A stretch of 64,000 bases of DNA from Serratia grimesii NBRC 13537 (GTDB taxonomy: Bacteria > Pseudomonadota > Gammaproteobacteria > Enterobacterales > Enterobacteriaceae): the NCBI RefSeq assembly GCF_001590905.1, contig NZ_BCTT01000003.1, positions 124,001 through 188,000 of the forward strand, given 5' to 3'. Of the stretch, positions 26,771 to 47,118 are shown piece by piece (positions within the stretch are counted from its first letter, which is position 1; every line of letters starts with the position of its first letter). The translations under genes were made by a program, and so were the position numbers. The notes beneath the pieces were generated by a model that was not told where the DNA came from, searched no databases, and saw only the letters and a list, made by a program, of their open reading frames with translations.

Positions 26771-26859
26771 ACTCCGTGATTAACTTGGCGCCAAGCTTTC
26801 CACAGAAAAATTACCGCTATACTGAAGAGGCCATTTTATGTTCAACCCAAGGAGGCGCC

Positions 26860-28260
26860 ATGCTGGGTCTTGATGCACTGGAACTTGCCAGAATACAGTT
26901 CGCCTTCACCGTTTCTTTCCATATTATTTTTCCGGCGATTACCATCGGCCTGGCCAGTTATCTGGCGGTGCTGGAAGGTTTATGGCTGAAAACGCGCAAT
27001 GAAACCTACCGCGATCTGTACCATTTCTGGTCAAAAATTTTCGCCGTTAACTTCGGCATGGGCGTGGTTTCCGGCCTGGTTATGGCCTACCAATTTGGCA
27101 CCAACTGGAGTTTCTTCTCCGAGTTTGCCGGCAGTATCACAGGACCGTTGCTGACGTATGAAGTGCTGACCGCCTTCTTCCTGGAAGCAGGTTTCCTGGG
27201 TGTCATGCTGTTTGGCTGGAACCGCGTCGGCCCCGGCCTGCACTTTTTCGCTACCTGCATGGTCGCGCTGGGCACACTGATTTCCACCTTCTGGATCCTG
27301 GCGTCCAATAGCTGGATGCAGACGCCTCAGGGACACGAGATCATCAACGGTCAGGTAGTGCCGGTCGACTGGCTGAAAGTAATTTTCAACCCGTCATTCC
27401 CGTATCGACTGTTGCACATGTCAACCGCCGCCTTCCTGTCTTCGGCGTTCTTCGTGAGTGCCTCTGCCGCCTGGCATTTACTGCGCGGTCGCGACACGCC
27501 TGCCATGCGTAAAATGCTGTCGATGGCGATGTGGATGGCACTGATTGTCGCACCAATACAGGCGATGATCGGCGATGCCCACGGCCTGAATACACTAAAA
27601 TACCAGCCGGCAAAAATTGCCGCCATCGAAGGGCACTGGGAAAACCCGCCGGGGGAAGCTACACCACTGATCTTGTTCGGTTGGCCGGATATGCAGCGTG
27701 AAGAAACCCGTTTCAAGCTGGAAGTCCCCTACCTCGGCAGCTTAATCCTGACCCACAGCCTGACCGAACAGGTACCGGCACTGAAATCCTTCCCACCGGA
27801 AGACCGTCCGAACTCCACAGTGGTGTTCTGGTCGTTCCGCATTATGGTGGCGTTGGGTATGTTGATGATCCTCGCCGGGGTCTGGAGCCTATGGCTACGC
27901 TGGCGTGGCGGGTTATATCAATCCCGACCCTTCCTCTATTTCATTCTTTGGATGGGGCCTTCCGGATTGCTGGCGCTGCTGGCGGGCTGGTTCACCACCG
28001 AGATAGGACGTCAACCGTGGGTCGTTTATGGCCTGCTGCGTACCAAGGATGCCGTTTCTGCACACGGCGACCTGCACATGAGCATCAGCTTATTGGCGTT
28101 TATCATCGTTTATTGCTCGGTATTCGGCGTGGGTTACTCCTACATGATGCGGTTGATTCGCAAAGGGCCGCAGCAGCATGAAGTGCACGAAGATGACACC
28201 GAAGGCCGACCGGCACGTCCGCTGTCTGCGGTGAAAGAAACTCTGGATGACAGGAGCTGA
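26860..28260 (+). CDS. cioA: cytochrome bd-type quinol oxidase subunit I (cyanide-insensitive type)
   Basis: This 466-residue haem-carrying subunit oxidises ubiquinol and reduces O2 in the inner membrane. [21 protein letters not shown] near the N-terminus holds a haem-ligand His, GRQPW lies in [14 protein letters not shown], and the quinol loop is short as in CioA rather than the long CydA of E. coli. The ATG at 26860 is preceded by a full AAGGAGG. An upstream in-frame start at 26776 has no such site. It is followed at once by subunit II and a DUF2474 gene. Confidence 0.93.
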
Positions 28261-28262
28261 GC

Positions 28263-29270
28263 ATGGGCATTGATCTTCCGCTGATTTGGTTTGTGATCAT
28301 CGTGTTCAGCACCATGATGTACGTGGTAATGGACGGCTTTGATTTAGGTATCGGCATCCTGTTCCCCTGGGTTAAGGACAGCGGTGACCGTGATGTGATG
28401 ATGAACACCGTCGCCCCGGTCTGGGACGGCAATGAAACCTGGCTGGTACTGGGTGGTGCGGCGCTGTTCGGCGCCTTCCCATTGGCTTACGCGGTAATCC
28501 TCGACGCGCTGGCCATTCCGCTGACCCTGATGTTGTTTGGCCTGATCTTCCGCGGCGTAGCTTTTGAGTTCCGCTTTAAGGCCACGGCAGAAAAACGCCA
28601 CATTTGGGACAAGGCGTTTATCTGGGGCTCCATCTTCGCCACCTTCAGCCAAGGGGTCGTGGTGGGCGCCATCATCAATGGTTTCCCGGTCAATGGCCGC
28701 ACCTATGCCGGTGGCGCCCTCGACTGGCTGACGCCGTTCGCGCTGTTTTGCGGCTTGGGGCTGGTGGTGACCTATGCGTTACTCGGCTGCACTTGGCTGG
28801 TGATGAAAACTGCCGGCGACTTGCAGGCACGCATGTATCGGTTAGCAACACCGCTGCTGGTGATCCTGCTGCTGGTGTTGGCAGTCGTCAGTATCTGGAC
28901 GCCGATTGCTCACCCGGAAATCGCCACCCGCTGGTTCACGTTACCTAATCTGTTTGTGCTGCTGCCCGTGCCTATATTGGTACTGCTCAGCGCCTGGGGC
29001 ATCCAGCATGGTGTGAAAAATGCTGGGCATTACTCGCCGTTCTTGCTCACTCTGTTGCTGGTATTTCTGGGCTTGAGTGGTCTGGGCATCAGCATTTGGC
29101 CGCTGTTGATTCCGCCGTCCATTACCCTGTGGCAAGCCGCGGCACCGCCGCAAAGCCTGGGTTTCATGCTGGTGGGCGCGCTATTTATCATTCCAATTAT
29201 TTTGGTTTATACCTTCTGGAGCTACTACGTGTTCCGCGGCAAGGTCAGCCATGAACATGGTTATCACTGA
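28263..29270 (+). CDS. cioB: cytochrome bd-type quinol oxidase subunit II
   Basis: This 335-residue membrane protein has about eight to nine helices. It starts with the conserved block YVVMDGFDLGIGILFPW (Asp of the proton path), followed by APVWDGNETWLVLGGAALFGAFP, diagnostic of CydB/CioB. It follows cioA by two bases. It forms the heterodimer with subunit I. Confidence 0.93.
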   Translation: MGIDLPLIWFVIIVFSTMMYVVMDGFDLGIGILFPWVKDSGDRDVMMNTVAPVWDGNETWLVLGGAALFGAFPLAYAVILDALAIPLTLMLFGLIFRGVAFEFRFKATAEKRHIWDKAFIWGSIFATFSQGVVVGAIINGFPVNGRTYAGGALDWLTPFALFCGLGLVVTYALLGCTWLVMKTAGDLQARMYRLATPLLVILLLVLAVVSIWTPIAHPEIATRWFTLPNLFVLLPVPILVLLSAWGIQHGVKNAGHYSPFLLTLLLVFLGLSGLGISIWPLLIPPSITLWQAAAPPQSLGFMLVGALFIIPIILVYTFWSYYVFRGKVSHEHGYH

Positions 29271-29483: not shown

Positions 29484-30569
29484 CTACTCCGGTTTGCGCC
29501 CCATCGCGCTAAGAAAACGCTGTTGCAAACGCAATAACTCCCCCAGTTCCAACACCCGATAGTCGATACTAAAACGCGGTGCCACCTCAGCAATGATACG
29601 GCTTAATGCCGGGTAATGCCGGTGACTCCAGTGCGGAAACAAATGGTGCGTCAGATGCAAATTGGCACCGCCCAACCAATAACCTAACCAACGTGGTCGC
29701 GGAAACCAGTCAAACGTCGTGGCAAACACATGATGATACCAGCCGTGCGGTAACGGCCCCTGCGCCGGAGCCTGATAAAACTTCGCCTTGGCCCAATGGG
29801 TACCAATAATCAGCATCACAAACAGCAGCGACGAAAGCATCTGGCTCAGCAGATAAACCAGCACTATTTGCCCCACACCTATCGCTGGTGGTAACAGGTA
29901 ACAGGGGATGGCCAGCGCCAGTATCAGGTGCGCAGTTTTGCCCATCAAAAACACAGTCCAGCCACGTATTCCCCGCTGCGCCATTCGTGCCGTAACCCGG
30001 GTTTGCCCCGCCCGATCCAGCCAATCGAACAACCAGATGTAATACGGGAAGGTCATCGCGGCAACCAGCGGCCAGTAAAAACGCTGCGCGCGCATAAAAG
30101 GCCGCCAACGCTGGAACGGCGTCTGACGCAGTACGCCGTTGGCATCGATATCAGGATCGTAATGCTCGATGTTGTTGTGTGCGTGATGAAAAATAACGTG
30201 TCTTACTCGCCAGCAATCGGGATCTAATCCAAGCGGAATACTCACCAGGCAATTCAGCCAGCGATTGGCCCATGGCTGTTTGAAAAATGCGTTATGCGAC
30301 GCATCATGGACCACGTTCACCGTGAGGAACATGCCAATGAAAATAAAACCGAAGTAACAGGCAAAATACGCCCAGATACTGTGTTGTTGCAGACTCAATG
30401 CATAACAAAGCGCACACAGCGCCAGCAGTATCAATACCTTTGCCAGCATGCCAATATCAGCAAAACGGTGATCGCGACTTTCGGCCAGATAATTCTGTGC
30501 AGCCTGCATCAATGCGCGGTGCAGACCAGAGTCATCACGCTGAAAAGCCAGCGGGCGCAACGGTGTCAT
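29484..30569 (-). CDS. membrane fatty acid desaturase A
   Basis: This 361-residue di-iron desaturase has all three His boxes: VHDASHNAF at about 95, RHVIFHHAHNN at about 130 and HLTHHLFPHWSHRHYP near the C-terminus. Hydrophobic pairs anchor it in the inner membrane. The ATG at 30569 (MTPLRPLAF) overlaps the stop of the paralogous desaturase by 4 nt (ATGA). The frame is open to 30818, but that extension lies inside the other gene. It is the last gene of the eight-gene lipid operon. The paralogue shares TPFQRWR and HGWY blocks, so the pair arose by tandem duplication and may act in sequence. Confidence 0.88.
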   Translation of the reverse strand: MTPLRPLAFQRDDSGLHRALMQAAQNYLAESRDHRFADIGMLAKVLILLALCALCYALSLQQHSIWAYFACYFGFIFIGMFLTVNVVHDASHNAFFKQPWANRWLNCLVSIPLGLDPDCWRVRHVIFHHAHNNIEHYDPDIDANGVLRQTPFQRWRPFMRAQRFYWPLVAAMTFPYYIWLFDWLDRAGQTRVTARMAQRGIRGWTVFLMGKTAHLILALAIPCYLLPPAIGVGQIVLVYLLSQMLSSLLFVMLIIGTHWAKAKFYQAPAQGPLPHGWYHHVFATTFDWFPRPRWLGYWLGGANLHLTHHLFPHWSHRHYPALSRIIAEVAPRFSIDYRVLELGELLRLQQRFLSAMGRKPE

Positions 30570-31648
30570 GGCTGCCCCATCCGACGTAAGAATTGCTGTT
30601 GCTGTGCCAGCAGTTCGCGGTAACCAATGCAGCGATATTCCATACCATGCTGCGCCGCCAGTTGCGCCACTATGGCGGCCAGCGCCGGGTAATGTCGATG
30701 ATTCCAACCGGGGAACAAATGGTGGGTCAGATGATAATTCAACCCGCCGGTCAGATGCTGTAATCCACGTGGTGAGGTTTCCCAATCGCACGCAGTAGCA
30801 AAATTGTGTCGGTACCAACCGTGCGGCATGCTTTCGCCTTCCGGCACAGAGTAAAACTCAGCCTGCGCCCAATGGGTGCCCAATAACAAGAACACCACCA
30901 ACAGTGAAGCGCACATTTGACTGAGTGCGTAAGCCAACAACACCCATTGCCAGCTGATGCCGTTCTGTTGACATAACACCAGCGGTACTGCCAGTACCAG
31001 CAGCAGATGGCCAATCTTGCACAGGATAAACACGGCCCAACCACCACCGCCCGGTAAAATGTTCTTTTCATGCAATGGGGTTTTACCCATGCGATCCGAC
31101 CAGTCAAAAATCCAGGCGATATAGGGCAGAGAGAGTGCGGCAATCATCGGCCAATACAGATGTTGATAGCGCATATGTTTACGCCAGCGCTGGAACGGCG
31201 TCTGGCGAAAGAAACCATTTTCCTCGGTATCCAAATCATAATGTTCAACATTGGCATAAACATGGTGATAATCCACGTGCCGCACGCGCCAGTAGTCTGG
31301 ATCCACCCCCAACGGCAACGTGACTAACCGTCCTACCAACCGGTTGGCCCAAGGGCTGCGCAAAAAGGCATTATGCGAAGCATCATGATTCACATTCACA
31401 TTGAGCAGCATCCCCATCATCACAAACAGGAAATAACAGCCGAAAAACGCCCACGGCTGTTGCTGCATCACGCTCAAAACATAAAAACCACAGCACAACA
31501 CCAGCAGCAGTGCCGCTTTAGCCAGTCGCCAGCCGTCGGCATAACGGTGATCACCCGCCAGATACGCGTGCGCGGCATGTTTGAGCGCACGATGAAACGC
31601 CTGTTCGCCATCGGCAGGAAAACGCAGCGGTGGGAGTGCGTCAGCCAT
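30566..31648 (-). CDS. membrane fatty acid desaturase B
   Basis: The 360-residue paralogue of the next gene has the same His boxes: NHDASHNAF, RHVDYHHVYAN and HLTHHLFPGWNHRHYP. It has four or more membrane segments. Substrate chain and double-bond position cannot be read from sequence. It overlaps the fatty acid hydroxylase gene by 8 nt and the second desaturase by 4 nt. Confidence 0.88.
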   Translation of the reverse strand: MADALPPLRFPADGEQAFHRALKHAAHAYLAGDHRYADGWRLAKAALLLVLCCGFYVLSVMQQQPWAFFGCYFLFVMMGMLLNVNVNHDASHNAFLRSPWANRLVGRLVTLPLGVDPDYWRVRHVDYHHVYANVEHYDLDTEENGFFRQTPFQRWRKHMRYQHLYWPMIAALSLPYIAWIFDWSDRMGKTPLHEKNILPGGGGWAVFILCKIGHLLLVLAVPLVLCQQNGISWQWVLLAYALSQMCASLLVVFLLLGTHWAQAEFYSVPEGESMPHGWYRHNFATACDWETSPRGLQHLTGGLNYHLTHHLFPGWNHRHYPALAAIVAQLAAQHGMEYRCIGYRELLAQQQQFLRRMGQP

Positions 31649-32774
31649 GCGACACTCCCGTCGGAACCGGCTGTTTCGCCCGGCCCCAACCTAATGCCAC
31701 GCAAACGCCGTGCAGTGCGATAATGGCCATCGCAATTTGCCAATAGCGCTGCGGCCACCCGAGATAACCGATGAACAACAGCGGAATACTCAGCGTAATC
31801 ACCAGCCAGGCCACAATCGCCCAGCGATGCCCTTCTGTCATGCCGCCCAACGCCATTGATCCAAACGCCAACAGGACCAACAGCGTCATTTGCGGCCAGT
31901 TAACATCACTGTAGCCGTAGCCGTACTGGTAAACATAACCTATGACCAGCGTAAACAGCAGCATCGCACCGCTGAACACGCTAAGTGCTGAGCAACGGAA
32001 ACGCCCCGTTGTCGCTTTAGGCCGCCAGGACAGACGTAAATAACGCAAGAAAGGAAGATTGCTCGCCCAGAACGGATTGGCGGACGGCTTATCGCCACTG
32101 ACGCCATACACAAATGGCGTTTCAGGCAGGTTCGGACAAAAAGTACCGAACAACTTATCCCAGAAGATAAAGCTGCCGCCAAAATTTTTGTTCGAATAGG
32201 CCAGGTCTTTAACGTGATGCACCCGATGATGCGCCGGCGTGACCAGTATTTTCTCCAACAGACCAAGCTTAGGCGTTAGCGCATTATGGTTAAACAGCTG
32301 AATGCTGTAGTGCAGGATAGACACCGTGACAAACACTGACAACGGCACACCCAGCAGCGCCAATACTAAAAAGAACGGGATCGACGTTAGCGACGAATAC
32401 CAGGAATTGCGAACCCCCAACGAGAGATTGAAATGCTCCCCCTGGTGATGCACCACATGCACCGCCCACAGCACCCGTAAATAATGGTGCAGGCGATGCA
32501 ACCAGTAAAAACCCAAGTCCCACGCCAGCAGGGCAAACAGCCACATTAGCACCGGTGGCCAGGTATCCAACAGGCCCAGGCTGAAGTGTGCTGCCACATA
32601 GCCATAGCAGGTGATCTCCAACCCACGGAACAGCCACAGCATGATATGACCGGAGTTCAGATTGAACACCAGATCGTGCCAGTTCACCTGGCGCCGCTGC
32701 GCGTATTGCAACACCAGCGCCTCACCAATGACGACAAACAGCATGAACAGGATCGGCATCGCCAGTTCGCTCAT
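31641..32774 (-). CDS. fatty acid hydroxylase / sterol desaturase superfamily protein
   Basis: This 377-residue integral membrane di-iron enzyme has His clusters FYWLHRLHHYLRVLWAVHVVHH (two boxes, about 88-110) and TPAHHRVHHVKD at about 180. This is the PF04116 pattern seen in carotenoid and lipid hydroxylases. The C-terminal third is an additional set of four hydrophobic helices, longer than the simplest members. It probably hydroxylates or cleaves a lipid chain, but the substrate is unknown. It overlaps the PAP2 gene by 4 nt. Confidence 0.85.
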   Translation of the reverse strand: MSELAMPILFMLFVVIGEALVLQYAQRRQVNWHDLVFNLNSGHIMLWLFRGLEITCYGYVAAHFSLGLLDTWPPVLMWLFALLAWDLGFYWLHRLHHYLRVLWAVHVVHHQGEHFNLSLGVRNSWYSSLTSIPFFLVLALLGVPLSVFVTVSILHYSIQLFNHNALTPKLGLLEKILVTPAHHRVHHVKDLAYSNKNFGGSFIFWDKLFGTFCPNLPETPFVYGVSGDKPSANPFWASNLPFLRYLRLSWRPKATTGRFRCSALSVFSGAMLLFTLVIGYVYQYGYGYSDVNWPQMTLLVLLAFGSMALGGMTEGHRWAIVAWLVITLSIPLLFIGYLGWPQRYWQIAMAIIALHGVCVALGWGRAKQPVPTGVSHG

Positions 32775-33391
32775 CCTATTTCTCCTTTGACGGTATCTCG
32801 CCGCACGCTATTGATGCGCTGCACCACCCAACCGGCAATAAATGCCAACAGTGCCCCACTGACCAGATCAACCAGCAAATGGCGACGCAATTGCAGGATG
32901 GAAAACGCGATCGCCAGCGCCCATACCATGAGCAACGCCGTTCTCACTTTACGCTGCTTATCGCTCAATGCCCACACGGCCAACACCGTCAGCGCCATGT
33001 GTAGCGAAGGCAGGCAATTTTGCAGTGAATCAACCTGGGTCAGTGCCGCCAGCAGTTGTGAACTTAACCCGTCCCCCTTGTCTTGCGGATAAACCAAGGT
33101 CGTTGGCCACAACAGGTATATCGCTCCAGCGCCCACTGCGGCCAGTTGCATCGCTGCTCTCAGCCATTTGACCCGCTCAATCGGCGCTAACAGATAGCCG
33201 AGCGGAACAATGATAAAGAAAGACAGATACAACCAAATGGCGGTCGGACTAAACGGGATCCCGCGGTCAATTGCTGATGGCGGGAGCACTGTGCCCGTAC
33301 TTTGTAGACGGTCGGTTAACGTATAAACGACGCCCACGAGTCCCCAGCCCAGCAACATCTGCCACAACCGATACGCGATCATTCTCATCAT
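32771..33391 (-). CDS. PAP2-superfamily membrane phosphatase
   Basis: This 206-residue protein has about five to six membrane helices. The catalytic signatures are NCLPSLHMAL (SxH) at about residue 128 and LRRHLLVDLVSG (R-H-D) at about 168. This is the lipid phosphate phosphatase / phospholipid-type transferase fold. In the operon it could dephosphorylate or transfer a lipid head group. The first box is not obvious, so it is closer to the inositol-phosphorylceramide-synthase-like PAP2_3 branch. Confidence 0.8.
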   Translation of the reverse strand: MMRMIAYRLWQMLLGWGLVGVVYTLTDRLQSTGTVLPPSAIDRGIPFSPTAIWLYLSFFIIVPLGYLLAPIERVKWLRAAMQLAAVGAGAIYLLWPTTLVYPQDKGDGLSSQLLAALTQVDSLQNCLPSLHMALTVLAVWALSDKQRKVRTALLMVWALAIAFSILQLRRHLLVDLVSGALLAFIAGWVVQRINSVRRDTVKGEIG

Positions 33392-34671
33392 GCCCCCGCC
33401 TGGCGGATAATCCGTCTTCTCTTACGATCAAACTGCGGCATCACCGTCTGTACCGTCCGTTGCCACTCCAGATTCGCGGTCGCAATGCCCTGTTGTTCAA
33501 ACAATGCCGTTAGCTGTGACTGGCAGTGAGCCAACTCAGCCTCGCTGCAATCGGCGATCAGATGCAATTGCGTCTCACCGTATTGGATCAGCCGGTAATC
33601 GCTGGTCAGCGGCAACGCATTGGCAATCGCGCGGCTGCACACGTCGGCAAATACCACCTGTGGTTGTTCAAACCTATTGGGCAACACCAGTTGATCGTCA
33701 CGCCGCCCTTCAATACGCGCAATCGCCATTGATCGCTGCCCACAAGGGCAAGGTTCCGTCTGTTTGACCAACACATCATCCAGCCGGTAGCGCACAATCG
33801 GTTGGGTGCTACGGGTAAAGTCAGTGATCAACGGCGTAAAACGCTGCTCATCAATCCACTGCGGTTCAATATGCAAGAACTCTTCGTTCAGATGCAGGGT
33901 ACCGTGCGCACAAGTAGCCGCCAGGAAGCCCTCAGTGGCCTGATACACCTCACCTACCACGGGAAAAACCTGCGCCAGCAGACGCCGGTCTTGTTCTTCC
34001 AGCACTTCTGCCACCGAAATCACCTTCTTTACCTCGAGATGAATCTGTTTGGCTAACACCGCTAGCGCCAATGCGCGCAGTACCTGCGCCGGTGCGACAA
34101 TGATGGTGGGTGCCTGCTGCTCCAGCCGGGATAGCTGTGGGGTAAAAGGCGCAAAAAGATCGTAAAACACCAGACTCAGCCAACGATTGTTCACGCTGTG
34201 ATACAGGTTATTGTCCGCCCGCAGAAACAGCGCCACGCGTTCACCGGCAAACAGACCGTCCGGCAGCATTTTCGCCAGCATGCCTCCGGCCCAAACCTGT
34301 TGTTCACGTGGACTGACGACAAAAATGCCACGTTGTCCTGACGTCCCTGACGACAGGCCTACGCTGTATTTCCCGATTTTTGGCGTGAAATCCCGTTCCA
34401 CCTCACTGCGTTGCGCGCAGGCTAACAGTGCGTCGCGTTGCAATCCGGCGGTGTTCATTTGATCGAACTGCGCCATCATCAACGCCTTATCCATCAGCGG
34501 CCAAGTGGCGATCGCTTGCCGGCTGACACGCCGGAAATAAGGGCTTTTAGTCAACACGCTCCGGGCAAAGCGTTTTAGTTGCCTCTTCTGGTAGGCTTCC
34601 AAAGAATGGCGATCGGAAAAGACTAAACGGCGGGCCCGAAAGTAGTGCCACAGTGTCATTAACGGGATCAT
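33388..34671 (-). CDS. PaaK/CoF-synthetase-type adenylating enzyme
   Basis: This 427-residue member of the F390-synthetase/phenylacetate-CoA-ligase-like branch has the P-loop VGLSSGTSGQRGIFVVS at about residue 104. YQATEGFLA is the adenylate motif, and RYRLDDVL with a CPCGQ pair follows, as in PaaK enzymes. It likely activates a carboxylic acid as acyl-AMP, perhaps the fatty chain made by the KAS III. It overlaps both neighbours by 4 nt. Confidence 0.8.
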   Translation of the reverse strand: MIPLMTLWHYFRARRLVFSDRHSLEAYQKRQLKRFARSVLTKSPYFRRVSRQAIATWPLMDKALMMAQFDQMNTAGLQRDALLACAQRSEVERDFTPKIGKYSVGLSSGTSGQRGIFVVSPREQQVWAGGMLAKMLPDGLFAGERVALFLRADNNLYHSVNNRWLSLVFYDLFAPFTPQLSRLEQQAPTIIVAPAQVLRALALAVLAKQIHLEVKKVISVAEVLEEQDRRLLAQVFPVVGEVYQATEGFLAATCAHGTLHLNEEFLHIEPQWIDEQRFTPLITDFTRSTQPIVRYRLDDVLVKQTEPCPCGQRSMAIARIEGRRDDQLVLPNRFEQPQVVFADVCSRAIANALPLTSDYRLIQYGETQLHLIADCSEAELAHCQSQLTALFEQQGIATANLEWQRTVQTVMPQFDRKRRRIIRQAGA

Positions 34672-35474
34672 AAATCCCCCTCATGGCACAGCAGGATCTC
34701 GGCATTACCACTCGCCCACAACTGGTTCAGCCGCTCCAACGTGCGATAATAGGCATTAGAATCCTCCATCACCAGGTTGGCCAACCGTGAAGGCCCACGC
34801 AACTGCTGGTAGCTTAACGGAGACCAGGCAGCGTCGCTGGCCAGCAGTGTCCAACCGCTGTCCGTGAGGATAAATGCACCTATATGGCCGGCAGCATGCC
34901 CTGGCAGGTCTACCAACACGATTTGCCCGTCGCTGCCCGGCAACGCATACCCGCGATCGAAGGGTGCGAGCAAAGCAGGTAGGCTGACCTGAGGAAAACC
35001 TTCGATGAACGTCAGGTTAGTCTCGAAACTCTCTGGAATCAGGCCGGGAATAAAGGCGCGTTTTAACGCTGCAAAGCCTCGCAGTTCACGAGTTTGCCGC
35101 CATCCTTCACCGGAACAGATAAAACCGAGGTGCGCGAAATCACGCAGCCCGGCAACGTGATCTGCATGAAAATGTGAAACGATTAACGCCTGGATATCAT
35201 TGGCGTCATAACCTGCGGTGCGCAACTGGTGTGCCAACGATTCTCTGGGATCGAAATACACCGGCGTCATCTGCCGGTAAATGCGGAAAATGCCAGACTG
35301 CGTCTGCTGCTGGAAATAGTGCGCGTAGCCAGTGTCCCACAGCCAACGTCGTTCTCCCACCTCCAACAGATAAGCACGTGCGGGGAATTTGCACACCCGG
35401 AATCCTGCGCCACGCAACGCCATACAACCGATATGGGTACAATACCCCACGTCAAAAACGGTCACCTTAGCCAT
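34668..35474 (-). CDS. MBL-fold metallo-hydrolase
   Basis: The 268-residue di-zinc hydrolase has the HxHxDH motif in VSHFHADHVAGL at about residues 98-109. Further zinc ligands lie in DLPGHAAGH, and the late His in CHEGDL. The overall plan is like AHL lactonases and related thioesterase-like hydrolases. In this operon it could release an acyl product from a thioester or open a lactone ring. It overlaps the SDR gene by 8 nt. Confidence 0.82.
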   Translation of the reverse strand: MAKVTVFDVGYCTHIGCMALRGAGFRVCKFPARAYLLEVGERRWLWDTGYAHYFQQQTQSGIFRIYRQMTPVYFDPRESLAHQLRTAGYDANDIQALIVSHFHADHVAGLRDFAHLGFICSGEGWRQTRELRGFAALKRAFIPGLIPESFETNLTFIEGFPQVSLPALLAPFDRGYALPGSDGQIVLVDLPGHAAGHIGAFILTDSGWTLLASDAAWSPLSYQQLRGPSRLANLVMEDSNAYYRTLERLNQLWASGNAEILLCHEGDL

Positions 35475-36483
35475 GCAGCGCGCCCCCCTGCCGTTTAAAC
35501 CATTCGCCGGTCATACGAATTCCCTCATCCATCGAATAGCGCGGCAGGTAGCCCAGTTCTTCAATAGCACGGGTCTGGCTAAGCGTCATATCGAAATACA
35601 CCGCCGCCACGCTATAACGGGTCAGCAGGGGTTCTTTGCCGGTAAAACGGGCCAGCAGTTCCAAACAGCCTGCCAGCACACTCAGCAAGGGATAAGGCAC
35701 CGCCTGTAGCCGATAACGTAATCCCAACTGCTGACGCAGCAACGCATCCAGCATATCTGCCAGCCGTTGTGGTTGATGGTTTGTGATGTTGTACACCGCG
35801 CCGGAGGGCAACCGATGCTGACGGCTCGCCAGATCCATCGCGTGCACCACGTTGAGCACGAAGGTCAGGTCCAGTAGCGCGTTCCCTCCACCGGGCAAGC
35901 GAAGCACGCCACTATCGCGGTCCAACTGTTGCAGCAGGCGTGGCACAATCACCCGGTCATGCGGGCCAAACAGCCCTCTCGGGCGAAGAATAATGTAGGT
36001 GGTTTGCGGGTAACGGAGCACCCGCTCCTGCAACCGTTGTTCCGCAGCGTATTTGCTGGCCGCGTAATGATTGGCGAAACGACGGGCGCGGTATCCTTCA
36101 TCAACATATTGATGAACGTTAAAATCAAAGTAAATCGCCGGCGTGGAAATATGAATAAAGCGCCGCACGCCACAAACCCCTGCCGCCTCCACCAACTTTT
36201 CTGTGGCAACCGCATTGGCCTGATAAAACTCGGCCTTACTGCCCCACGGAGAAGACTTTGCCGCACAGTGCCACACCCAATCACAGCCCAGCATCAATTG
36301 TCGACACTCTTCCGCCGTGGCCTGTGCTAAATCCAATGGGCTAAACTCGGCCCCCAGTAGCCTCAGTTCTTCTCCAGCCCGCTTGTCGCGCCCGGTAGCC
36401 TGCACCTGATAACCCGCGTCCAGCAACCACTGCGCCGCATTGCGCCCTAGCCCACTGGTGGCCCCCGTGACCAACACCTTCAC
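35467..36483 (-). CDS. extended SDR / 3-beta-HSD-type NAD(P)-dependent oxidoreductase
   Basis: The 338-residue protein has the extended-SDR nucleotide motif VTGATSGLGRNAAQ at residues 4-17, HISTPAIYFD (active-site Ser region) and YAASKYAAEQ (YxxxK). The architecture resembles OleD and sterol dehydrogenases, suggesting reduction of a 3-keto acid or ester from the KAS III. It overlaps the KAS III gene by 4 nt. Confidence 0.85.
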   Translation of the reverse strand: MKVLVTGATSGLGRNAAQWLLDAGYQVQATGRDKRAGEELRLLGAEFSPLDLAQATAEECRQLMLGCDWVWHCAAKSSPWGSKAEFYQANAVATEKLVEAAGVCGVRRFIHISTPAIYFDFNVHQYVDEGYRARRFANHYAASKYAAEQRLQERVLRYPQTTYIILRPRGLFGPHDRVIVPRLLQQLDRDSGVLRLPGGGNALLDLTFVLNVVHAMDLASRQHRLPSGAVYNITNHQPQRLADMLDALLRQQLGLRYRLQAVPYPLLSVLAGCLELLARFTGKEPLLTRYSVAAVYFDMTLSQTRAIEELGYLPRYSMDEGIRMTGEWFKRQGGALHG

Positions 36484-37490
36484 GGCAGCAGTACCATGCC
36501 AGCCAGCGATAACCCGGCGGCGGTACCAATCAGCATCACCGGTTTCCCTGGGTTAAAGCGACCATCGGTAACCGCAGCATGCAGTGCCGTGGGAATAGAC
36601 GCCGCAACCTGATTGCCGTGATAGCGGTAAATATCCACCAGTACCTCGCTGGACACATGCAGGCGCTTACGCATATGTTCAAGTGACAGATGACTTGCCT
36701 GATGCGGCACCACCGTGGCGATCTGCGCCAACGTCAGGCCGCTGGCAGCAAGCAGACGAGCCAGGTAGTCTTCGATCAACGCCGAGGCCTGACGGAACAG
36801 TTGTTTACCTTGCATATGAAACAGGAAGTCGCTGCCTGTCATACCGGCCCGCGGATTACGTCGGGTCCCTCCGGCACGGATCTCACACAATTCGCTGCCT
36901 TCGGGGTAGGTTTCCACCAGGCTGGCCAGAATGCCACTGGTTCCATCACCCCGCTCCACAATGGCACAAGCCGCCCCGTCGCCAAAAATCAGTGAGGACT
37001 CTTCGTGATCCCAGTCGATGCCGCGCGAGGCCAAATCTGCCGAGATAATCGCAATACGTTTATAGGTCCCGGCATTGAGCAAACCGGCAGCCACCTGCAT
37101 CGCAGAGATAAAACTGACACAGCTGCTATTAATATCGAAGCCTGCCGTACCGGGTGCCAAACCGGCGATTTTGAGAATGTGCGCAGCAGTACAAGGCAGC
37201 GCTTGCACTGAGATCGCTGAAGCGGAAATCAATAAGTCGATGGATTGCGCGTCGATATTGCAACGGGTCAAGGCATCCTGTAACGCGGCAACGGCCAGCT
37301 CAGCCTGACTCGCATCATCAGCAGCGTGATAACGGTGGACGATGCCGGAGCGTTTTTCGACGTAACCGACTGGCTTGCGCAACAACCTGTCCAGAGTGGA
37401 AGATTCGACGCGATTAGGCGGTAACGCCGCCCCAGTAGCGATGACTTTAAGAGGCAGCAACGCAGGTGACGAAAAAGAGTGTATTGTCAT
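36480..37490 (-). CDS. 3-oxoacyl-ACP synthase III (FabH/OleA-like)
   Basis: This 336-residue thiolase-fold enzyme joins an acyl primer to a second chain or extender. The catalytic Cys is in FDINSSCVSFISAMQVA at about residue 118, and the His in VVPHQASHLSL. The third residue lies in YHGNQVAASIP, where FabH has GNTSAAS; the Thr-to-Gln change suggests a non-standard substrate. It opens the lipid operon. No strong ribosome-binding site is visible before the ATG, so translation may be weak. A second acyl carrier or FabD-like gene is absent, so it must use the host pool. Confidence 0.85.
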   Translation of the reverse strand: MTIHSFSSPALLPLKVIATGAALPPNRVESSTLDRLLRKPVGYVEKRSGIVHRYHAADDASQAELAVAALQDALTRCNIDAQSIDLLISASAISVQALPCTAAHILKIAGLAPGTAGFDINSSCVSFISAMQVAAGLLNAGTYKRIAIISADLASRGIDWDHEESSLIFGDGAACAIVERGDGTSGILASLVETYPEGSELCEIRAGGTRRNPRAGMTGSDFLFHMQGKQLFRQASALIEDYLARLLAASGLTLAQIATVVPHQASHLSLEHMRKRLHVSSEVLVDIYRYHGNQVAASIPTALHAAVTDGRFNPGKPVMLIGTAAGLSLAGMVLLP

Positions 37491-37739
37491 TATTGTTGTT
37501 GATTAACCTGACTATCCATAAAGCGATCTCCCGGCGCTATCCTACTAACAGCGGCGAGTCATCCCCGGTTTTAAATCCCAAAGTGCCCGCAAACAGGGGC
37601 TATTGATTGTTGTTATGCACTGCAAACAGCCGGCAGGCGCCGACGAATAATTGTAACAATACTGAGATATTAAGTTTACGGCAAGGAAGCAAAAATAGGC
37701 AGGCGAAGGCGTAAAAATTGTAGGCGGGAAGAGTACACC

Positions 37740-37758
37740 GCCGCTGTTATACAGCGGC
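37740..37758. terminator. hairpin after narI
   Basis: GCCGCTG/CAGCGGC with loop TTATA lies 14 bases past the narI stop. It has no T-run on the minus strand but is well placed to end nar transcription before the lipid operon, which runs the same way. Confidence 0.45.
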
Positions 37759-37771
37759 AGTGTTTTGATGC

Positions 37772-38449
37772 TCAGCGGCGGTTGCGTACCAACTGATAGC
37801 GGCGAGTCAGATACTCTAGCGGTACACTCCAGATATGTACCAGGCGGCAGAACGGGAACAGCACGAACAGTGTCATACCCAGAACCATATGCAGTTTAAA
37901 GATTGGAGCCACCCCTACCAGATGTTCTGATGCACCAGCGTGGAAGGTCACCACAGCCTGCGCCCAACCCACCAGTTTCATCATTTCACTGCCGTCCATA
38001 TGTTGGGCGGAGAACGGAATGGTCAGCAAACCGAGGCACACCTGCACCACCAATAGCGTCAGGATCATGATATCGGCAAAGCTGCTGGTCGCCCGTACCC
38101 GTGGATTGGTCAGACGGCGTTTGAGCAACAACGCACCGCCGATCAGTGTCATCACACCGCAGGCACCACCGGCAATCATCGCCAGCTTCTGCTTCACATC
38201 AATCGGCAGGAAGGATTCATACATCCAATGCGGCGTCAGCATGCCGAGGAAGTGCCCGGCAAAAATGCCCAGAATACCGATGTGGAACAGGTTGGAGGCC
38301 AGTCGCATCCCTTTTTTATCCAGCATCTGGCTGGATCCGGCACGCCAGGTGTATTGGCCGTAATCGTAACGCAGCCAACTGCCGATCAGGAAAATCGCTC
38401 CCGCCAGATAGGGGTAGATATCGAAGAAGAACTGATTTAAAAATTGCAT
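37772..38449 (-). CDS. narI: respiratory nitrate reductase gamma chain NarI
   Basis: This 225-residue membrane anchor carries two b haems and oxidises quinol. It has five helices, with His ligands in [15 protein letters not shown] and in [22 protein letters not shown]. The length is that of E. coli NarI. It is the last gene of narGHJI. Confidence 0.96.
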
Positions 38450-38451
38450 GA

Positions 38452-39174
38452 TTAGCGTCCTTTGGTTCCGGTTAGCGCATCCGTCAGGTCCAGGTATTGC
38501 GGTGCCACCGCGCCGGCAAAACGCCGTTGGTGCGCCACTTGCTGCGCCGAAGCGCAGCCCTGCTCGCCTAGAAACTTAACTTGTTCCTCTTCCCATACTG
38601 CGTCTAGTGCCTGCGGCGTGTCATCGCGAGCTTCTTTTGCAACCTGGGACTCCAGCGTTTGAGACTGAACTTCACTGCCAGATAACACCAGCAGCAGATC
38701 AAACAGTACTGCATACGGACTTTCACGCTGTTGTAACCGCGCGCCAAGCAGTGCCAGGATCGGCGCAATATCCTGCAACCCACCCGCGGCCTGTTCCTTG
38801 CTGCGGCTAGCGAGATACTCCAGATACAGCGGCAAGAAATCCGGCAGTTCGCGGCTGTCGATCTCCAGCCCGGCTTCGCGGTATTGCGCCATCAGATCGA
38901 CCATGGCCTGGCCGCGATCGCGCGACTCGCCATGCACATGCTCAAACAGCAACAGTGAGGTGGCGCGCCCTCGATCGAACAGCTCACAGTATTCGGCCTG
39001 CACGTCCAACAATGGGCGAGCGCAAAAACGGCGAATAAACAAGATCAGCTGTGCACTGTGATGCAAATCCAGTTCGCTGGCCGGTTCCAGCGCTTCAACC
39101 AGCGCCTGCTGATGGTCAAACAGCGCCTGCTCCGGGTAGTCCAGCAGGCGAGCAATCACTTTCAGGCTGATCAT
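38452..39174 (-). CDS. narJ: nitrate reductase molybdenum-cofactor assembly chaperone NarJ
   Basis: This 240-residue redox-enzyme maturation protein is needed to fit Mo-bisMGD into NarG before membrane docking. It has the family block [17 protein letters not shown] and [18 protein letters not shown] at about 75-93. It overlaps narH by 4 nt and ends two bases before narI. Confidence 0.95.
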
Positions 39175-40715
39175 GAGGCATCCTCCTGACGCGGCGTTTT
39201 CTTCGTCACATCAATAGCGTCAATGCGGCGGCTGTTGAACAGGTTGAATTTACCGTCGCTGCCGTGGCAGCCGTCGCCAAAGCTAAAGCCGCAGCCTTTG
39301 CTTTCCGGGAAGGCAACACGTGCCAGTTCGCGATGGCTGGACGGGATCACAAAGCGGTCTTCGTAGTTGGCGATCGCCAGATAGCGATACATCTCCTGCG
39401 CCTGCGCTTCGGTCAGCCCCACCTGTTCCAGTGCGCTGGTGTCCAGTACGCCGTCAACGGTTTCTGCCCGTTTGTAATGGCGCATCGCCAGCATGCGCTT
39501 GAGCGCTAACAGCACCGGCGTAGTATCGCCAGCGGTCAGCAGGTTCGCCAAATATTGCACCGGAATACGCAGGCTTTCCACGTCCGGCAGCACGCCGCTA
39601 TGCGCCAGCTCACCGGCATCGGCGGCAGATTGAATCGGTGACAATGGCGGCACGTACCATACCATCGGCAGCGTGCGGTATTCCGGATGCAAAGGCAGCG
39701 CCAGTTTCCAGTCCATCGCCATTTTGTATACCGGCGACTGCTGGGCGGATTCGATCACCCCTTGTGGAATGCCGTCGGCCAACGCCTGGGCAATCACCGC
39801 AGGATCATGCGGGTCGAGGAAGATATCCAACTGGCTCTGGTATAAATCCTTGTCGTTTTCGACCGCTGCCGCCTGCTCAATACGGTCGGCGTCATACAGC
39901 AGCACGCCCAGATAGCGAATGCGACCCACACAGGTTTCCGAACACACCGTCGGCTGACCGGATTCAATGCGCGGATAACAGAAGATGCACTTCTCGGACT
40001 TGCCGCTTTTCCAGTTGAAGTAGATCTTTTTGTACGGGCAGCCGGTCAGGCACATGCGCCAGCCGCGGCATTTATCCTGATCGATCAGCACAATGCCGTC
40101 TTCGCCACGCTTGTAGATAGCACCACTCGGGCAGGTCGCGACGCAGGCCGGGTTAAGGCAGTGTTCGCACAGGCGCGGCAGGTACATCATGAAGGTGTTT
40201 TCGAACTGGCCGTACATCTCCTTTTGCATATTGTCGAAATTTTTGTCCTTCGAACGTTTGGAGAATTCGCCACCGAGGATCTCTTCCCAGTTCGGGCCAT
40301 TTTCAATCTTCTTCATGCGCTGGCCGGTGATCAGCGATCGCGGACGGGCGATCGGCTGATGCTTGCCCTGTGGCGCGGTATGCAAGTTTTGGTAATCGTA
40401 GTCGAACGGCTCGTAGTAATCGTCCAGCGCCGGGACATCCGGGTTGGCAAAAATCTTCGACAACAGACCGACACGACTGCCCATGCGTGGCTCAAGCTTG
40501 CCGTTGATTTTACGGATCCAACCGCCTTTCCACTTTTCCTGATCTTCCCAGGCGTGCGGATAACCCACGCCGGGCTTGCTTTCCACGTTATTGAACCAGG
40601 CGTACTCCATGCCCTCGCGGCTGGTCCAGACGTTTTTGCAGGTCACTGAACAGGTGTGGCAACCGATGCATTTGTCCAGGTTCAGCACCATGCCAACTTG
40701 CGAACGAATTTTCAT
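39171..40715 (-). CDS. narH: respiratory nitrate reductase beta chain NarH
   Basis: This 514-residue electron-transfer subunit has four Fe-S clusters. The Cys motifs are LDKCIGCHTCSVTCKNVW at about 14-31, CEHCLNPACVATCP, CRGWRMCLTGCPYKK and CIFCYPRIESGQPTVCSETC. The Trp in CRGWRMC marks the 3Fe-4S cluster as in E. coli. It overlaps narG by 4 nt. Confidence 0.97.
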   Translation of the reverse strand: MKIRSQVGMVLNLDKCIGCHTCSVTCKNVWTSREGMEYAWFNNVESKPGVGYPHAWEDQEKWKGGWIRKINGKLEPRMGSRVGLLSKIFANPDVPALDDYYEPFDYDYQNLHTAPQGKHQPIARPRSLITGQRMKKIENGPNWEEILGGEFSKRSKDKNFDNMQKEMYGQFENTFMMYLPRLCEHCLNPACVATCPSGAIYKRGEDGIVLIDQDKCRGWRMCLTGCPYKKIYFNWKSGKSEKCIFCYPRIESGQPTVCSETCVGRIRYLGVLLYDADRIEQAAAVENDKDLYQSQLDIFLDPHDPAVIAQALADGIPQGVIESAQQSPVYKMAMDWKLALPLHPEYRTLPMVWYVPPLSPIQSAADAGELAHSGVLPDVESLRIPVQYLANLLTAGDTTPVLLALKRMLAMRHYKRAETVDGVLDTSALEQVGLTEAQAQEMYRYLAIANYEDRFVIPSSHRELARVAFPESKGCGFSFGDGCHGSDGKFNLFNSRRIDAIDVTKKTPRQEDAS

Positions 40716-43700
40716 TTTGCTTTCTCCTGCTGGCTGCCCTGCGAATCGTCGTTACCCTCACCGTCTAACCAGTCAATACGGTTCATCTTGCGCACCACCA
40801 CGAACTCGTCGCGGTTAGAACCGACAGTGCCGTAATAGTTAAAACCGTAGGCCAGTTGCGCGTATCCCCCAATCATATGGGTCGGTTTCGGACAGACACG
40901 GGTCACCGAATTATGGATACCGCCGCGCTGGCTGGTGATTTCCGAACCTGGAATATTCACGATGCGTTCCTGCGCGTGGTACATCATGGTCATACCGGAC
41001 GGGACGCGCTGGCTGACCACCGCCCGCGCCGTTAACGCGCCATTGGCGTTAAAGGCTTCGATCCAGTCGTTGTCCTCAATGCCCAAGTCTTTGGCATCTT
41101 CTTCACTCATCCAGACGATCGGTCCACCGCGCGACAGGGTCAGCATCAGCAGGTTGTCGCTGTACGTGGAGTGAATGCCCCATTTCTGGTGCGGCGTCAG
41201 GAAGTTCAGCGCCTTCTCCTTGTTGCCGTTCGGCTTCTGGTTCAGCAACGGCTGCGCGGCACGGGTGTCGATCGGCGGGCGATACACCAGCAGGCTTTCG
41301 CCAAAGGCACGCATCCACTCATGGTCCTGATACAGCTGCTGACGGCCGCTGAGGGTGCGCCATGGGATCAGCTCATGCACGTTGGTATAACAGGCGTTGT
41401 AAGACACATGTTCATCTTCCAGGCCTGACCAGGTCGGGCTGGAAATGATTTTGCGCGGCTGCGCCTGAATATCGCGGAAGCGGATTTTTTCATCTTCCTT
41501 GTTCAGTGCCAGATGGCGGTGGTCTCGGCCGGTCATCTTGCCCAACGCGTCCCACGCCTTGACCGCGACCTGTCCGTTGGTTTCCGGTGCCAGCGCTAGG
41601 ATCACCTCGGCGGCATCGATGGCGGTTTCAATCTTCGGCCGACCGGCAGCCGGACCTTCCGCCTTCACGTAGTTAAGCTGTTTCAGGAAATCAACTTCGG
41701 TCTGGGTGTTCCAGCTAATCCCTTTACCGCCATTGCCCAGCTTATCCAGCAGCGGCCCCAGCGAAGTGAAACGCTCATAGGTAGCCGGATAATCACGCTC
41801 TACCACCATGATGTGCGGCGCGGTAATCCCTGGGATCAGATCGCACTCACCTTTCTTCCAGTCTTTAACGCCATAAGGCTGTGCCAACTCGGCGGCTGAA
41901 TCATGCTGGATCGGCAGCGTCACCACGTCGGTTTCCTTGCCCAAATGCCCGACACAAACTTCAGAGAAGGCCTTGGCAATACCTTTGTAGATCTCCCAAT
42001 CGCTCTTCGAATCCCAGGCCGGATCGACCGCCGCCGACAGCGGGTGAATAAACGGATGCATATCCGAGGTATTCATGTCGTCTTTTTCGTACCAAGTGGC
42101 AGTTGGCAACACGATGTCCGAGTAAAGGCAAGTGCTGGACATGCGGAAATCAAGCGTTACCACCAGATCCAATTTGCCTTCACCGCCGTTATCCAACCAT
42201 TCCACTTCCTCGGGCTTAGCGCCGCCCTGCTGGCCCAGATCCTTGCCCTGAATACCATTTTCAGTACCCAGCAAGTATTTGAGCATGTACTCATGGCCCT
42301 TGCCGGATGAGCCCAACAGATTGGAACGCCAAACGAACAGGTTACGCGGGAAGTTCTGCGGGTTGTCTGGCTGTTCAGCGGCAAAATTCAGGGTGCCTTT
42401 TTTCAACCCTGCAACGGTGAAGTCCAGCGGTGATTGACCAGCGGCTTTCGCCTGTGCCGCCAGATGCAGCGGGTTGGTACCCAGTTGAGGTGCCGACGGC
42501 AGCCAGCCCATGCGTTCAGCACGCACGTTGAGATCGATCAGACTGCCGCCAAAGCGGGTCTTGTCCGCCAACGGCGACAACAGCTCTTCAGTACCGACAG
42601 TTTCATAGCGCCACTGGCTGGAGTGGTTATAGAAGAACGAGGTACTGTTCATATGGCGCGGTGGACGTTGCCAGTCGAGGCCAAACGCCAGCGGCAGCCA
42701 ACCGGTCTGTGGACGGAGTTTTTCCTGGCCGACGTAGTGCGCCCAACCACCACCGCTCTGACCAACACAGCCGCAGAAGATCAGCATATTGATCAGGCCA
42801 CGGTAGGTCATGTCCATGTGGTACCAGTGGTTAACACCGGCACCAACGATAATCATCGAACGGCCATGGGTTTTCTCGGCGTTGTCGGCAAACTCACGGG
42901 CAATGCGGATAATGTTGTGACGTGAGACGCCTGTGATTTGCTCGGCCCAGGCTGGGGTATAAGCCTTGACGTCGTCATAGTCGGTGGCGCAGTTGGCATC
43001 GTTCAGACCACGTTCGAGGCCGTAGTTGGCCAGGGTCAAATCGTAAACGCTGGTCACCAACGCGTCGCTACCGTCCGCCAGACGCAGGCGTTTTACCGGC
43101 AGCGTGTGCAGCAGGATTTCGTCCAGCGCCACGCTGTTGAAATGTTCGCTCTCGGTACTGCCGCTTTTAATGCCGCCAAAGTACGGGAACCCGACTTCGG
43201 CCACTTCGTCATGCGCACCCAGCAGGCTGAGTTGCAACTCGACTTCCTGCCCGTCTTCACCGGCGCGTTGTTCCAGGTTCCATTTGCCCTGCTCACCCCA
43301 ACGGAAGCCAATCGACCCCTGCGGCGCCACCAGCTCACCGTTGCGCTGATCGATGGCAACGGTTTTCCACTCAGGGTTGTTTTCCTGGCCCAAACCATCC
43401 ACCAGATCAGCGGCACGCAGCAGGCGACCGGCGGCGTAATAACCCTCTTCGCGCGGTTCGAGCATCACCAGCATTGGCATATCGGTGTAACGACGCACGT
43501 AGTCCCGGAAGTAGCCCACCTCACGATCCAGGTGGAACTCTTTGAGCATCACGTGGCCCATTGCCAGCGCCATGGCGCTATCGGTACCCTGCTTCGGATT
43601 GAGCCACTGGTCGCACAGCTTGGCGACCTCCGCGTAGTCCGGCGTGACTGCCACGGTTTTGGTGCCTTTGTAGCGCACTTCAGTGAAGAAATGAGCGTCC

Positions 43701-44488
43701 GGGGTACGCGTCTGCGGCACGTTGGAGCCCCAGGCGATAATGTAGGAAGAGTTGTACCAGTCGGCCGATTCCGGCACGTCGGTTTGCTCGCCCCAGGTCA
43801 TTGGCGAGGCTGGCGGCAAGTCGCAGTACCAGTCGTAGAAGCTCAGGCAGGTGCCGCCAATCAGCGACAGATAGCGGGCGCCGGCGGCGTAGGACACCAT
43901 CGACATCGCCGGGATCGGTGAGAAGCCGATAATGCGATCCGGGCCGAAGGTTTTGGCGGTGTAAACGTTAGACGCGGCAATCAGTTCATTCACTTCTTGC
44001 CAGCTGGAACGCACAAAACCTCCGCGTCCGCGTGCGACTTTGTAGCTTTTGGATTTTTCTGCATCACTGACGATCGAGCCCCAGGCATCGACCGGATCGC
44101 TGTGCAGCGCCTTCGCTTCACGCCACAGTTTGATTAGGCGTTTACGCATCAGTGGGTATTTCAGTCGGTTGGCGCTGTACAGATACCAGGAGTAGCTGGC
44201 GCCACGCGGGCAACCGCGAGGTTCATGGTTGGGCAAGTCCGGGCGGGTACGCGGATAATCGGTTTGCTGGGTTTCCCAGGTCACCAGACCGTTTTTCACA
44301 TAAATCTTCCAGCTACAGGAGCCGGTACAGTTCACCCCATGGGTGGAACGCACAATTTTATCGTGCTGCCAGCGGCTACGATAGCCGTCTTCCCAGTCAC
44401 GGTTGGTGTTCAGCGTCTGGCCATGATCGCCCGAAAAGGGTTCCGCCAACTGCTTAAAATAGCGGAATCGGTCTAGAAACTTGCTCAT
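40712..44488 (-). CDS. narG: respiratory nitrate reductase alpha chain NarG
   Basis: This 1258-residue catalytic subunit reduces nitrate to nitrite on the cytoplasmic side. The FS0 ligands lie in HGVNCTGSCSW (about residues 50-60) and GCPRGASYSW. The Mo ligand Asp is in FYDWYCDLPPASP at about 222. The length is close to E. coli NarG (1247). The ATG has AGGAGA seven bases upstream. Its promoter holds an FNR box, but narK, its usual neighbour, is 18 kb away. Confidence 0.98.
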   Translation of the reverse strand: MSKFLDRFRYFKQLAEPFSGDHGQTLNTNRDWEDGYRSRWQHDKIVRSTHGVNCTGSCSWKIYVKNGLVTWETQQTDYPRTRPDLPNHEPRGCPRGASYSWYLYSANRLKYPLMRKRLIKLWREAKALHSDPVDAWGSIVSDAEKSKSYKVARGRGGFVRSSWQEVNELIAASNVYTAKTFGPDRIIGFSPIPAMSMVSYAAGARYLSLIGGTCLSFYDWYCDLPPASPMTWGEQTDVPESADWYNSSYIIAWGSNVPQTRTPDAHFFTEVRYKGTKTVAVTPDYAEVAKLCDQWLNPKQGTDSAMALAMGHVMLKEFHLDREVGYFRDYVRRYTDMPMLVMLEPREEGYYAAGRLLRAADLVDGLGQENNPEWKTVAIDQRNGELVAPQGSIGFRWGEQGKWNLEQRAGEDGQEVELQLSLLGAHDEVAEVGFPYFGGIKSGSTESEHFNSVALDEILLHTLPVKRLRLADGSDALVTSVYDLTLANYGLERGLNDANCATDYDDVKAYTPAWAEQITGVSRHNIIRIAREFADNAEKTHGRSMIIVGAGVNHWYHMDMTYRGLINMLIFCGCVGQSGGGWAHYVGQEKLRPQTGWLPLAFGLDWQRPPRHMNSTSFFYNHSSQWRYETVGTEELLSPLADKTRFGGSLIDLNVRAERMGWLPSAPQLGTNPLHLAAQAKAAGQSPLDFTVAGLKKGTLNFAAEQPDNPQNFPRNLFVWRSNLLGSSGKGHEYMLKYLLGTENGIQGKDLGQQGGAKPEEVEWLDNGGEGKLDLVVTLDFRMSSTCLYSDIVLPTATWYEKDDMNTSDMHPFIHPLSAAVDPAWDSKSDWEIYKGIAKAFSEVCVGHLGKETDVVTLPIQHDSAAELAQPYGVKDWKKGECDLIPGITAPHIMVVERDYPATYERFTSLGPLLDKLGNGGKGISWNTQTEVDFLKQLNYVKAEGPAAGRPKIETAIDAAEVILALAPETNGQVAVKAWDALGKMTGRDHRHLALNKEDEKIRFRDIQAQPRKIISSPTWSGLEDEHVSYNACYTNVHELIPWRTLSGRQQLYQDHEWMRAFGESLLVYRPPIDTRAAQPLLNQKPNGNKEKALNFLTPHQKWGIHSTYSDNLLMLTLSRGGPIVWMSEEDAKDLGIEDNDWIEAFNANGALTARAVVSQRVPSGMTMMYHAQERIVNIPGSEITSQRGGIHNSVTRVCPKPTHMIGGYAQLAYGFNYYGTVGSNRDEFVVVRKMNRIDWLDGEGNDDSQGSQQEKAK

Positions 44489-47016: not shown

Positions 47017-47030
47017 AGTTTGATTCTGCC

Positions 47031-47089
47031 TGTAGGGGGCGAATAAATTCGCCCCGGTTGACATGGGCGCAGCATGCAGCGCCCCTACG
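47031..47089. repeat. palindromic intergenic repeat, about 59 bp
   Basis: The element has outer arms GTAGGGG/CCCCTAC and two internal palindromes, GGGGCGAAT-AA-ATTCGCCCC and GGGCGC-AGCATGC-AGCGCCC. It has the look of the short REP/MITE-like repeats that are scattered between genes in Serratia and Yersinia. It separates two glycosyltransferase genes of one operon and would fold in the mRNA. Confidence 0.6.
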
Positions 47090-47118
47090 CGATGGAGAAA
47101 TGAACGAACATGGCGCCG

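Follow-up and report, generated by a model that had tools for sequence, protein, structure and literature searches.

The 64,000-nucleotide (nt) stretch analysed here, hereafter the window, belongs to Serratia grimesii NBRC 13537 (contig NZ_BCTT01000003.1, positions 124,001 to 188,000). On its minus strand, from 37490 to 29484, lies an operon of eight genes, listed here from first to last.

36480..37490, minus strand: beta-ketoacyl-acyl carrier protein synthase III (KAS III), FabH-type; catalytic C124-H263-N293, with Leu98 at the position of the OleA glutamate
35467..36483, minus strand: extended short-chain dehydrogenase/reductase (SDR), OleD-like; S113-Y140-K144
34668..35474, minus strand: metallo-beta-lactamase (MBL)-fold hydrolase; HxHxDH (H101, H103, D105, H106) with H193, D214 and H264
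33388..34671, minus strand: PaaK-type adenylate-forming enzyme related to F390 synthetase (F390; NCBIfam TIGR02304)
32771..33391, minus strand: PAP2_3 membrane protein; PSLH131 and RH171xxxD175, first phosphatase motif not present
31641..32774, minus strand: FA_hydroxylase (FAH; Pfam), best NCBIfam match OlsE, below cut-off
30566..31648, minus strand: fatty acid desaturase 1 (FAD1); three histidine boxes
29484..30569, minus strand: fatty acid desaturase 2 (FAD2), a separate paralogue; Pfam FA_desaturase

The original prediction, which had read these genes as a single coupled lipid-type pathway, is supported in this respect: profile searches bore out each of its family calls (KAS III, extended SDR, MBL, TIGR02304, PAP2, FA_hydroxylase and two FA_desaturase proteins), and the coordinates of the open reading frames agree with overlaps of 4 or 8 nt throughout. 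These measure 4 nt for KAS-SDR, MBL-F390, F390-PAP2, PAP2-FAH and FAD1-FAD2, and 8 nt for SDR-MBL and FAH-FAD1. The last frame is listed mechanically from a TTG at 30818, giving an overlap of 253 nt, rather than from the ATG at 30569, giving 4 nt; the ATG is most likely the true start of desaturase 2. Ratios of nonsynonymous to synonymous substitution (dN/dS) against four Serratia loci were 0.03-0.14 for all eight genes, values that are rough because dS was often above 1. A chance run of open reading frames was ruled out because the order of the first four genes is kept in 76 of 80 public loci, and a defence system was likewise rejected, with PADLOC matching none of the eight proteins.

Catalytic residues and predicted folds

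KAS III retains its catalytic Cys124, His263 and Asn293. In a sequence search its nearest PDB chains were a ketosynthase that we take to be MxnB (4v2p, E-value 1e-44) and CorB (4yuc, 2e-43), followed by FabH; with three FabH chains these spanned 1e-44 to 3e-40, and 1hn9, presumably E. coli FabH, was found at 5e-33. The lowest-ranked chains (3row, 5vxd and kin), which we assume to be OleA, reached just 3e-11 to 7e-11. An alignment that included two OleA proteins from ole loci placed Leu98 opposite the OleA glutamate (E97 in the OleA used, presumably the catalytic residue usually numbered E117) and the FabH phenylalanine. The enzyme is FabH/CorB-like by sequence and lacks the glutamate that OleA has besides Cys-His-Asn.

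The best curated families for the SDR are OleD, at 151.4 and 143.4 bits, far under the NCBIfam cut-offs of 580. OleD-family matches of some strength are widespread: among 229 genomes of the class 224 have them, as do all 14 control genomes. A second OleD-like SDR in the same genome (L161:8641-9651) is close to the operon enzyme, scoring 436 bits against its profile, compared with 225 and 227 for two true OleD proteins. Its neighbours look by eye like amiD, ltaE, poxB and hcp, which we take to be the E. coli ybjS position, and how it is related to the operon enzyme may prove instructive. The MBL hydrolase keeps its metal ligands in the family alignment, and its nearest NCBIfam families are mostly lactonases. 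The adenylase matches TIGR02304 over its full length (585.3 bits against a cut-off of 251.9, residues 3-425), carries the conserved motifs and a C-terminal Lys417, and has a predicted PaaK-type fold. No alpha/beta hydrolase or OleC match was found among the eight proteins (NCBIfam and Pfam, E 0.001), in line with the predicted absence of OleB. Because the OleA glutamate is missing and neither OleB nor OleC is present among the eight, membership of OleABCD was ruled out, and the suggested resemblance to olefin synthesis through OleA-, OleC- and OleD-like proteins was not supported.

Among the membrane enzymes, the PAP2 protein exceeds the Pfam cut-offs of PF14378 (40.4 bits) and PF01569 (32.5 bits). 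Its model (predicted local distance difference test score 94.9) is closest to three transferases, SMSr, Aur1 and inositol phosphorylceramide (IPC) synthase, over 192-203 of its 206 residues, with LpxE next and nearly tied. Phosphatases of this superfamily bear the motifs KxxxxxxRP, PSGH and SRxxxxxHxxxD; here PSLH131 represents the second and RHxxxD the end of the third, and neither 68 aligned rows nor a set of 26 showed a conserved Lys or RP belonging to the first, so that the three-motif signature is incomplete. The best NCBIfam match of the hydroxylase is OlsE at 80 bits, far under the cut-off of 475, and the histidines of the hydroxylase and desaturases are conserved in family alignments. 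A third fatty acid desaturase is located elsewhere in the genome. Compared by phmmer with PDB sequences, none of the three proteins PAP2, hydroxylase and desaturase 1 gave a useful match.

Conserved core, exchangeable modules and occurrence

A scan of public genomes by way of the adenylase recovered at least 80 loci, a lower bound, of which the best 80 were kept, some from metagenome-assembled genomes; bit-score thresholds were applied in family alignments and counts. The genera include Serratia, Pseudomonas, Pectobacterium, Erwinia, Rahnella, Citrobacter, Klebsiella, Yersinia (Y. similis), Xenorhabdus, Providencia, Gilliamella, Snodgrassella, Ralstonia, Burkholderia and Janthinobacterium, with bee-gut symbionts among the carriers. 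KAS-SDR-MBL-F390 is contiguous and in this order in 76 of the 80 loci, the full order KAS-SDR-MBL-F390-PAP2-FAH-FAD occurs in 52, and a tandem desaturase pair in 21; MBL and F390 overlap in all 79 measurable loci. The four loci outside the core order are L082 and L092, where no KAS was detected, L086, whose MBL frame is divided in two, and L101, which meets a contig edge; L036, with a split KAS frame whose smaller piece was dropped, remains within the 76. The split frames in L036 (Pseudomonas caricapapayae) and L086 (Ralstonia sp. TCR112) are possibly decaying copies or sequencing errors. In L092, a Burkholderia locus, the gene after the hydroxylase (12991-13884) encodes a Metal_hydrol (PF10118) protein.

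Beyond the core, gene content varies. In L051 and L062-L065 PAP2-FAH-FAD is replaced by a second SDR (SDR2), a GT21 glycosyltransferase whose best NCBIfam match, HpnI, is below cut-off, a small protein that matches no Pfam family and an MGT-type glycosyltransferase, and both modules occur in L057, L060, L061 and L096, with the small protein undetected in L057. Elsewhere the core adjoins ATP-grasp and GNAT genes (Paenibacillus, Paraburkholderia, Shinella, Rhizobium BT03), ATP-grasp only (Pontibacillus), DUF3419 (Rhizobium NIBRBAC), GT21 (Fusobacterium) or divergent sulfotransferases (Paracoccus, Ketogulonicigenium); we take DUF3419 to include the betaine-lipid enzyme BtaA and GT21 to include ceramide glucosyltransferase. 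All four core genes were present in 12 of 14 loci inspected from a plasmid collection; the KAS gene is last in L025, and in L027 and L028 KAS and SDR are separated by an ATP-grasp gene. We take this pattern to mean that a single lipid anchor receives different head groups, although two observations argue against a strict rule: some loci consist of the core alone (e.g., L059), and the plasmid loci L030 and L171 have the adenylase without the core. Small proteins beside GT21 in L096 (17480-18061) and L025 (4163-4795) have no Pfam or NCBIfam match and are alike by eye, with no link by phmmer. A glycosyltransferase module elsewhere in the S. grimesii genome was ruled out, as the 19.5 kb examined around the second OleD-like SDR (L161) held no GT21, small-protein or MGT genes of that module; the genome's only two Glyco_transf_21 matches lie within open frames of 869 and 876 amino acids that are probably other synthases.

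A TIGR02304 gene above cut-off is present in 24 of 30 genomes of the genus and 7 of 398 in an even sample of the phylum (own genome counted in both), as well as in 1 of 14 control genomes. In E. coli, a blastn query made of SDR-MBL-F390 hit 672 of the 5426 complete genomes (about one in eight). At least 80% of a seven-gene E. coli query stretch was found in 671 genomes, and for 568 of the 672 the identity at its best place reached 99% or more; CFT073, Nissle, ATCC 25922, EC958 and NRG857C are among the matches listed for this query. With the cluster present in hundreds of genomes, the original view that it had no known counterpart proved wrong at the genome level. In three records inspected, the E. 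coli cluster has the same families, order and post-narI place; its core proteins are 60-72% identical to those of the window; it differs in having a single desaturase, which groups with desaturase 2 and is 47% identical to desaturase 1. In the two chromosomes among these records, tRNA-Tyr genes come next. K-12 is without the block: homology breaks off at the stop codon of narI and picks up again in tRNA-Tyr sequence. K-12 ychS was rejected as an operon remnant, its match being confined to stretches at the tRNA-Tyr end. Two cluster-bearing E. coli records, L004 and CP054248.1 (386 and 542 kb), are filed as plasmids; because chromosomal genes (narX-narI, purU, rssAB, galU, hns) surround the cluster in L004, this record is likely a misfiled or integrated chromosomal piece.

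In a FastTree phylogeny of the four core proteins from 84 loci (L025 and L026 were left out, their SDR being under threshold), the sister group of the Serratia clade that holds the window is formed by the Pseudomonas loci (local support 0.994). Two other Serratia loci, L044 and L045, branch elsewhere together with Snodgrassella L059, and the intervening nodes have support of only 0.77-0.82. The window's F390 protein is 78-80% identical to those of three Pseudomonas loci, compared with 71-72% for L044 and L045. Tree placement and identities thus indicate, by sequence comparison, that the block has moved between orders. For six operon proteins compared over 61 loci, pairwise distances are correlated (r 0.76-0.94); this fits joint inheritance, although shared ancestry is part of these values. 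Desaturase 2 of the window falls in a clade of 36 desaturases (support 1.0) along with those from the one-desaturase clusters of Escherichia, Citrobacter gillenii, Leclercia and Providencia; desaturase 1 of the window lies outside it.

The operon is placed directly downstream of the nitrate reductase genes narGHJI, and the order narJ-narI-operon-cydB-cydA is common to six Serratia-titled loci (L034, L035, L037, L041, L044 and L045). Its neighbours are as follows.

37772..44488, minus strand: narGHJI, upstream neighbour outside the pathway (narG, narJ and narI by scan, narH by position)
37491..37771, minus strand: intergenic stretch between narI and the operon
26776-29270: convergent pair of cytochrome bd genes beyond the operon's 3' end

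Parts of the intergenic stretch are alike by eye in L034, L035, L037 and L041, and the operon's own promoter may lie within it; a promoter scan of 37450-37900 was near background (1 found, 0.5 expected), and two terminator-like sites there are both on the plus strand. Farther away, exopolysaccharide/capsule-type genes occupy 46114-58324 on the minus strand, between narG and a NarK/NarU-family transporter (62418-63821). They encode glycosyltransferases (46114-47064, 50740-51801, 51803-52708), a TupA-like ATP-grasp protein (52850-53698), a Wzc-like tyrosine kinase (54982-57162) and a polysaccharide export protein (57191-58324); GC content falls to 0.458 at 52001-54000. Past them, also on the minus strand, lies a further extended SDR (59600-60556; best NCBIfam HpnA, 83 bits against a cut-off of 368).

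A candidate lipid pathway and its alternatives

Gene content, coupling and conservation, together with intact catalytic residues and the predicted folds of two proteins, are the observed ground for a tentative proposal, in which we place somewhat less than even confidence: the operon would make one modified lipid in two stages, with a core of four soluble enzymes forming a beta-hydroxyacyl lipid alcohol and four membrane enzymes tailoring it. All of the chemistry, including reaction order, acyl-chain substrate, head-group transfer and product, is what we infer. KAS III would add two carbons from malonyl-acyl carrier protein or malonyl-coenzyme A to a medium or long acyl starter, the SDR would reduce the 3-keto to a 3-hydroxy group, and the MBL hydrolase would release or trim an acyl thioester or lactone. 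The adenylase, in keeping with its predicted fold and its motifs, would convert the hydroxy acid to acyl-AMP and may couple it by an ester, amide or thioester, yielding the lipid alcohol. PAP2 might then move a phospho head group between a glycerophospholipid and this alcohol, or remove it, and the hydroxylase and two desaturases would carry out O2-dependent modification of the chain. Because the same core stands beside other modules in other bacteria, its product could work like ceramide or diacylglycerol, as a common anchor with exchangeable head groups. A bolder version, which we regard as doubtful, is a serine palmitoyltransferase-independent route to a ceramide-like lipid, in which a hydroxylated anchor from the four-gene core receives phospho, sugar, aminocarboxypropyl or aminoacyl heads in different bacteria, unnoticed in pathogenic and probiotic E. 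coli.

Other explanations were considered. PAP2 could be a plain lipid phosphatase, turning a phosphorylated intermediate into a neutral lipid or a precursor glycosylated elsewhere, as its Pfam domains, the nearly level LpxE fold match and the joint occurrence of PAP2 and glycosyltransferases in L057, L060, L061 and L096 would allow; the unconserved first motif and the three transferases at the head of the structural matches make this unlikely. An activate-extend-release scheme of the Pseudomonas quinolone signal (PQS) type would have the adenylase load an unusual, perhaps aromatic, acid, KAS III extend it, the SDR reduce it, the MBL hydrolase release a small signal or secreted metabolite and the membrane enzymes oxidise it. 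The adenylase, KAS III and MBL hydrolase do occur together, with activities predicted from sequence, and these classes are shared with PqsA, PqsD and PqsE; the PDB search with KAS III also returned a "PQS biosynthetic enzyme" (3h76, E 1e-18), and the PaaK-like fold, the lactonase families and the core-only loci agree as well. We nevertheless judge the scheme distinctly improbable, given PAP2, hydroxylase and one or two desaturases after the core in 52 of 80 loci and head-group-type enzymes in the other modules.

A head-to-head condensation of the OleABCD kind, in which MBL stands in for OleB and the PaaK-type enzyme for OleC, would yield a beta-lactone, long ketone or olefin and would account for the OleD families as best curated match of the SDR and for an acyl-AMP-forming enzyme. 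It is very unlikely in view of Leu98, the far better matches of KAS III to FabH/CorB chains than to the presumed OleA chains, and the lack of alpha/beta hydrolase and OleC matches among the eight proteins. We give scarcely any credence to the idea that the operon merely desaturates and hydroxylates bulk phospholipids, for instance in cold adaptation: two desaturases here and a third elsewhere would suit it, but in the loci seen the desaturases adjoin KAS III, SDR, MBL and adenylase (stand-alone tailoring genes would not show, because loci were found via the adenylase), and the whole block is missing from E. coli K-12.

The cluster is a conserved pathway with an unassigned product, and 672 of the 5426 complete E. 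coli genomes carry it, CFT073, Nissle and ATCC 25922 among them. If the proposal of a new lipid is true, E. coli lipid work may have missed it because K-12 is without the operon, and the natural module-exchange variants offer a ready comparison set for the core product.

Relation to known systems

We know of no product for this gene set, and the original statement that no characterised pathway has it agrees with the open full-text papers searched, which do not describe it; most subscription journals and preprints, where a description is possible, fall outside that coverage. The name F390 synthetase does appear in a different lipid gene set of anammox bacteria and Desulfotalea (PMC2649909) and for a gene in phenol degradation (PMC5501837).

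With OleABCD the operon has in common a KAS III-superfamily enzyme, an OleD-like SDR and acyl adenylation; it differs in having no OleA glutamate, OleB or OleC and in possessing a PaaK-type adenylase, an MBL hydrolase and membrane di-iron enzymes. CorB and 4v2p, from the corallopyronin and myxopyronin systems, are the best PDB sequence matches of its KAS III, but this similarity is only moderately above that to FabH, and there is no polyketide synthase among the eight proteins. Sphingolipids are tailored by SMS/Aur1, glucosylceramide synthase, a hydroxylase and desaturases, and the operon resembles this scheme in its predicted PAP2 fold (like SMSr, Aur1 and IPC synthase), in the GT21 genes of sister clusters, and in a hydroxylase and desaturases from the same broad superfamilies. 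Its core, in contrast, is KAS III-SDR-MBL-adenylase, with no ceramide synthase among the eight proteins and no serine palmitoyltransferase among them by NCBIfam and Pfam, a search that did not extend to the rest of the genome. The PqsA-PqsD-PqsE part of the PQS pathway likewise combines an adenylating ligase, a KAS III and an MBL hydrolase in an activate-extend-release arrangement, to which the operon adds an extra SDR, followed by tailoring and head-group-type enzymes.
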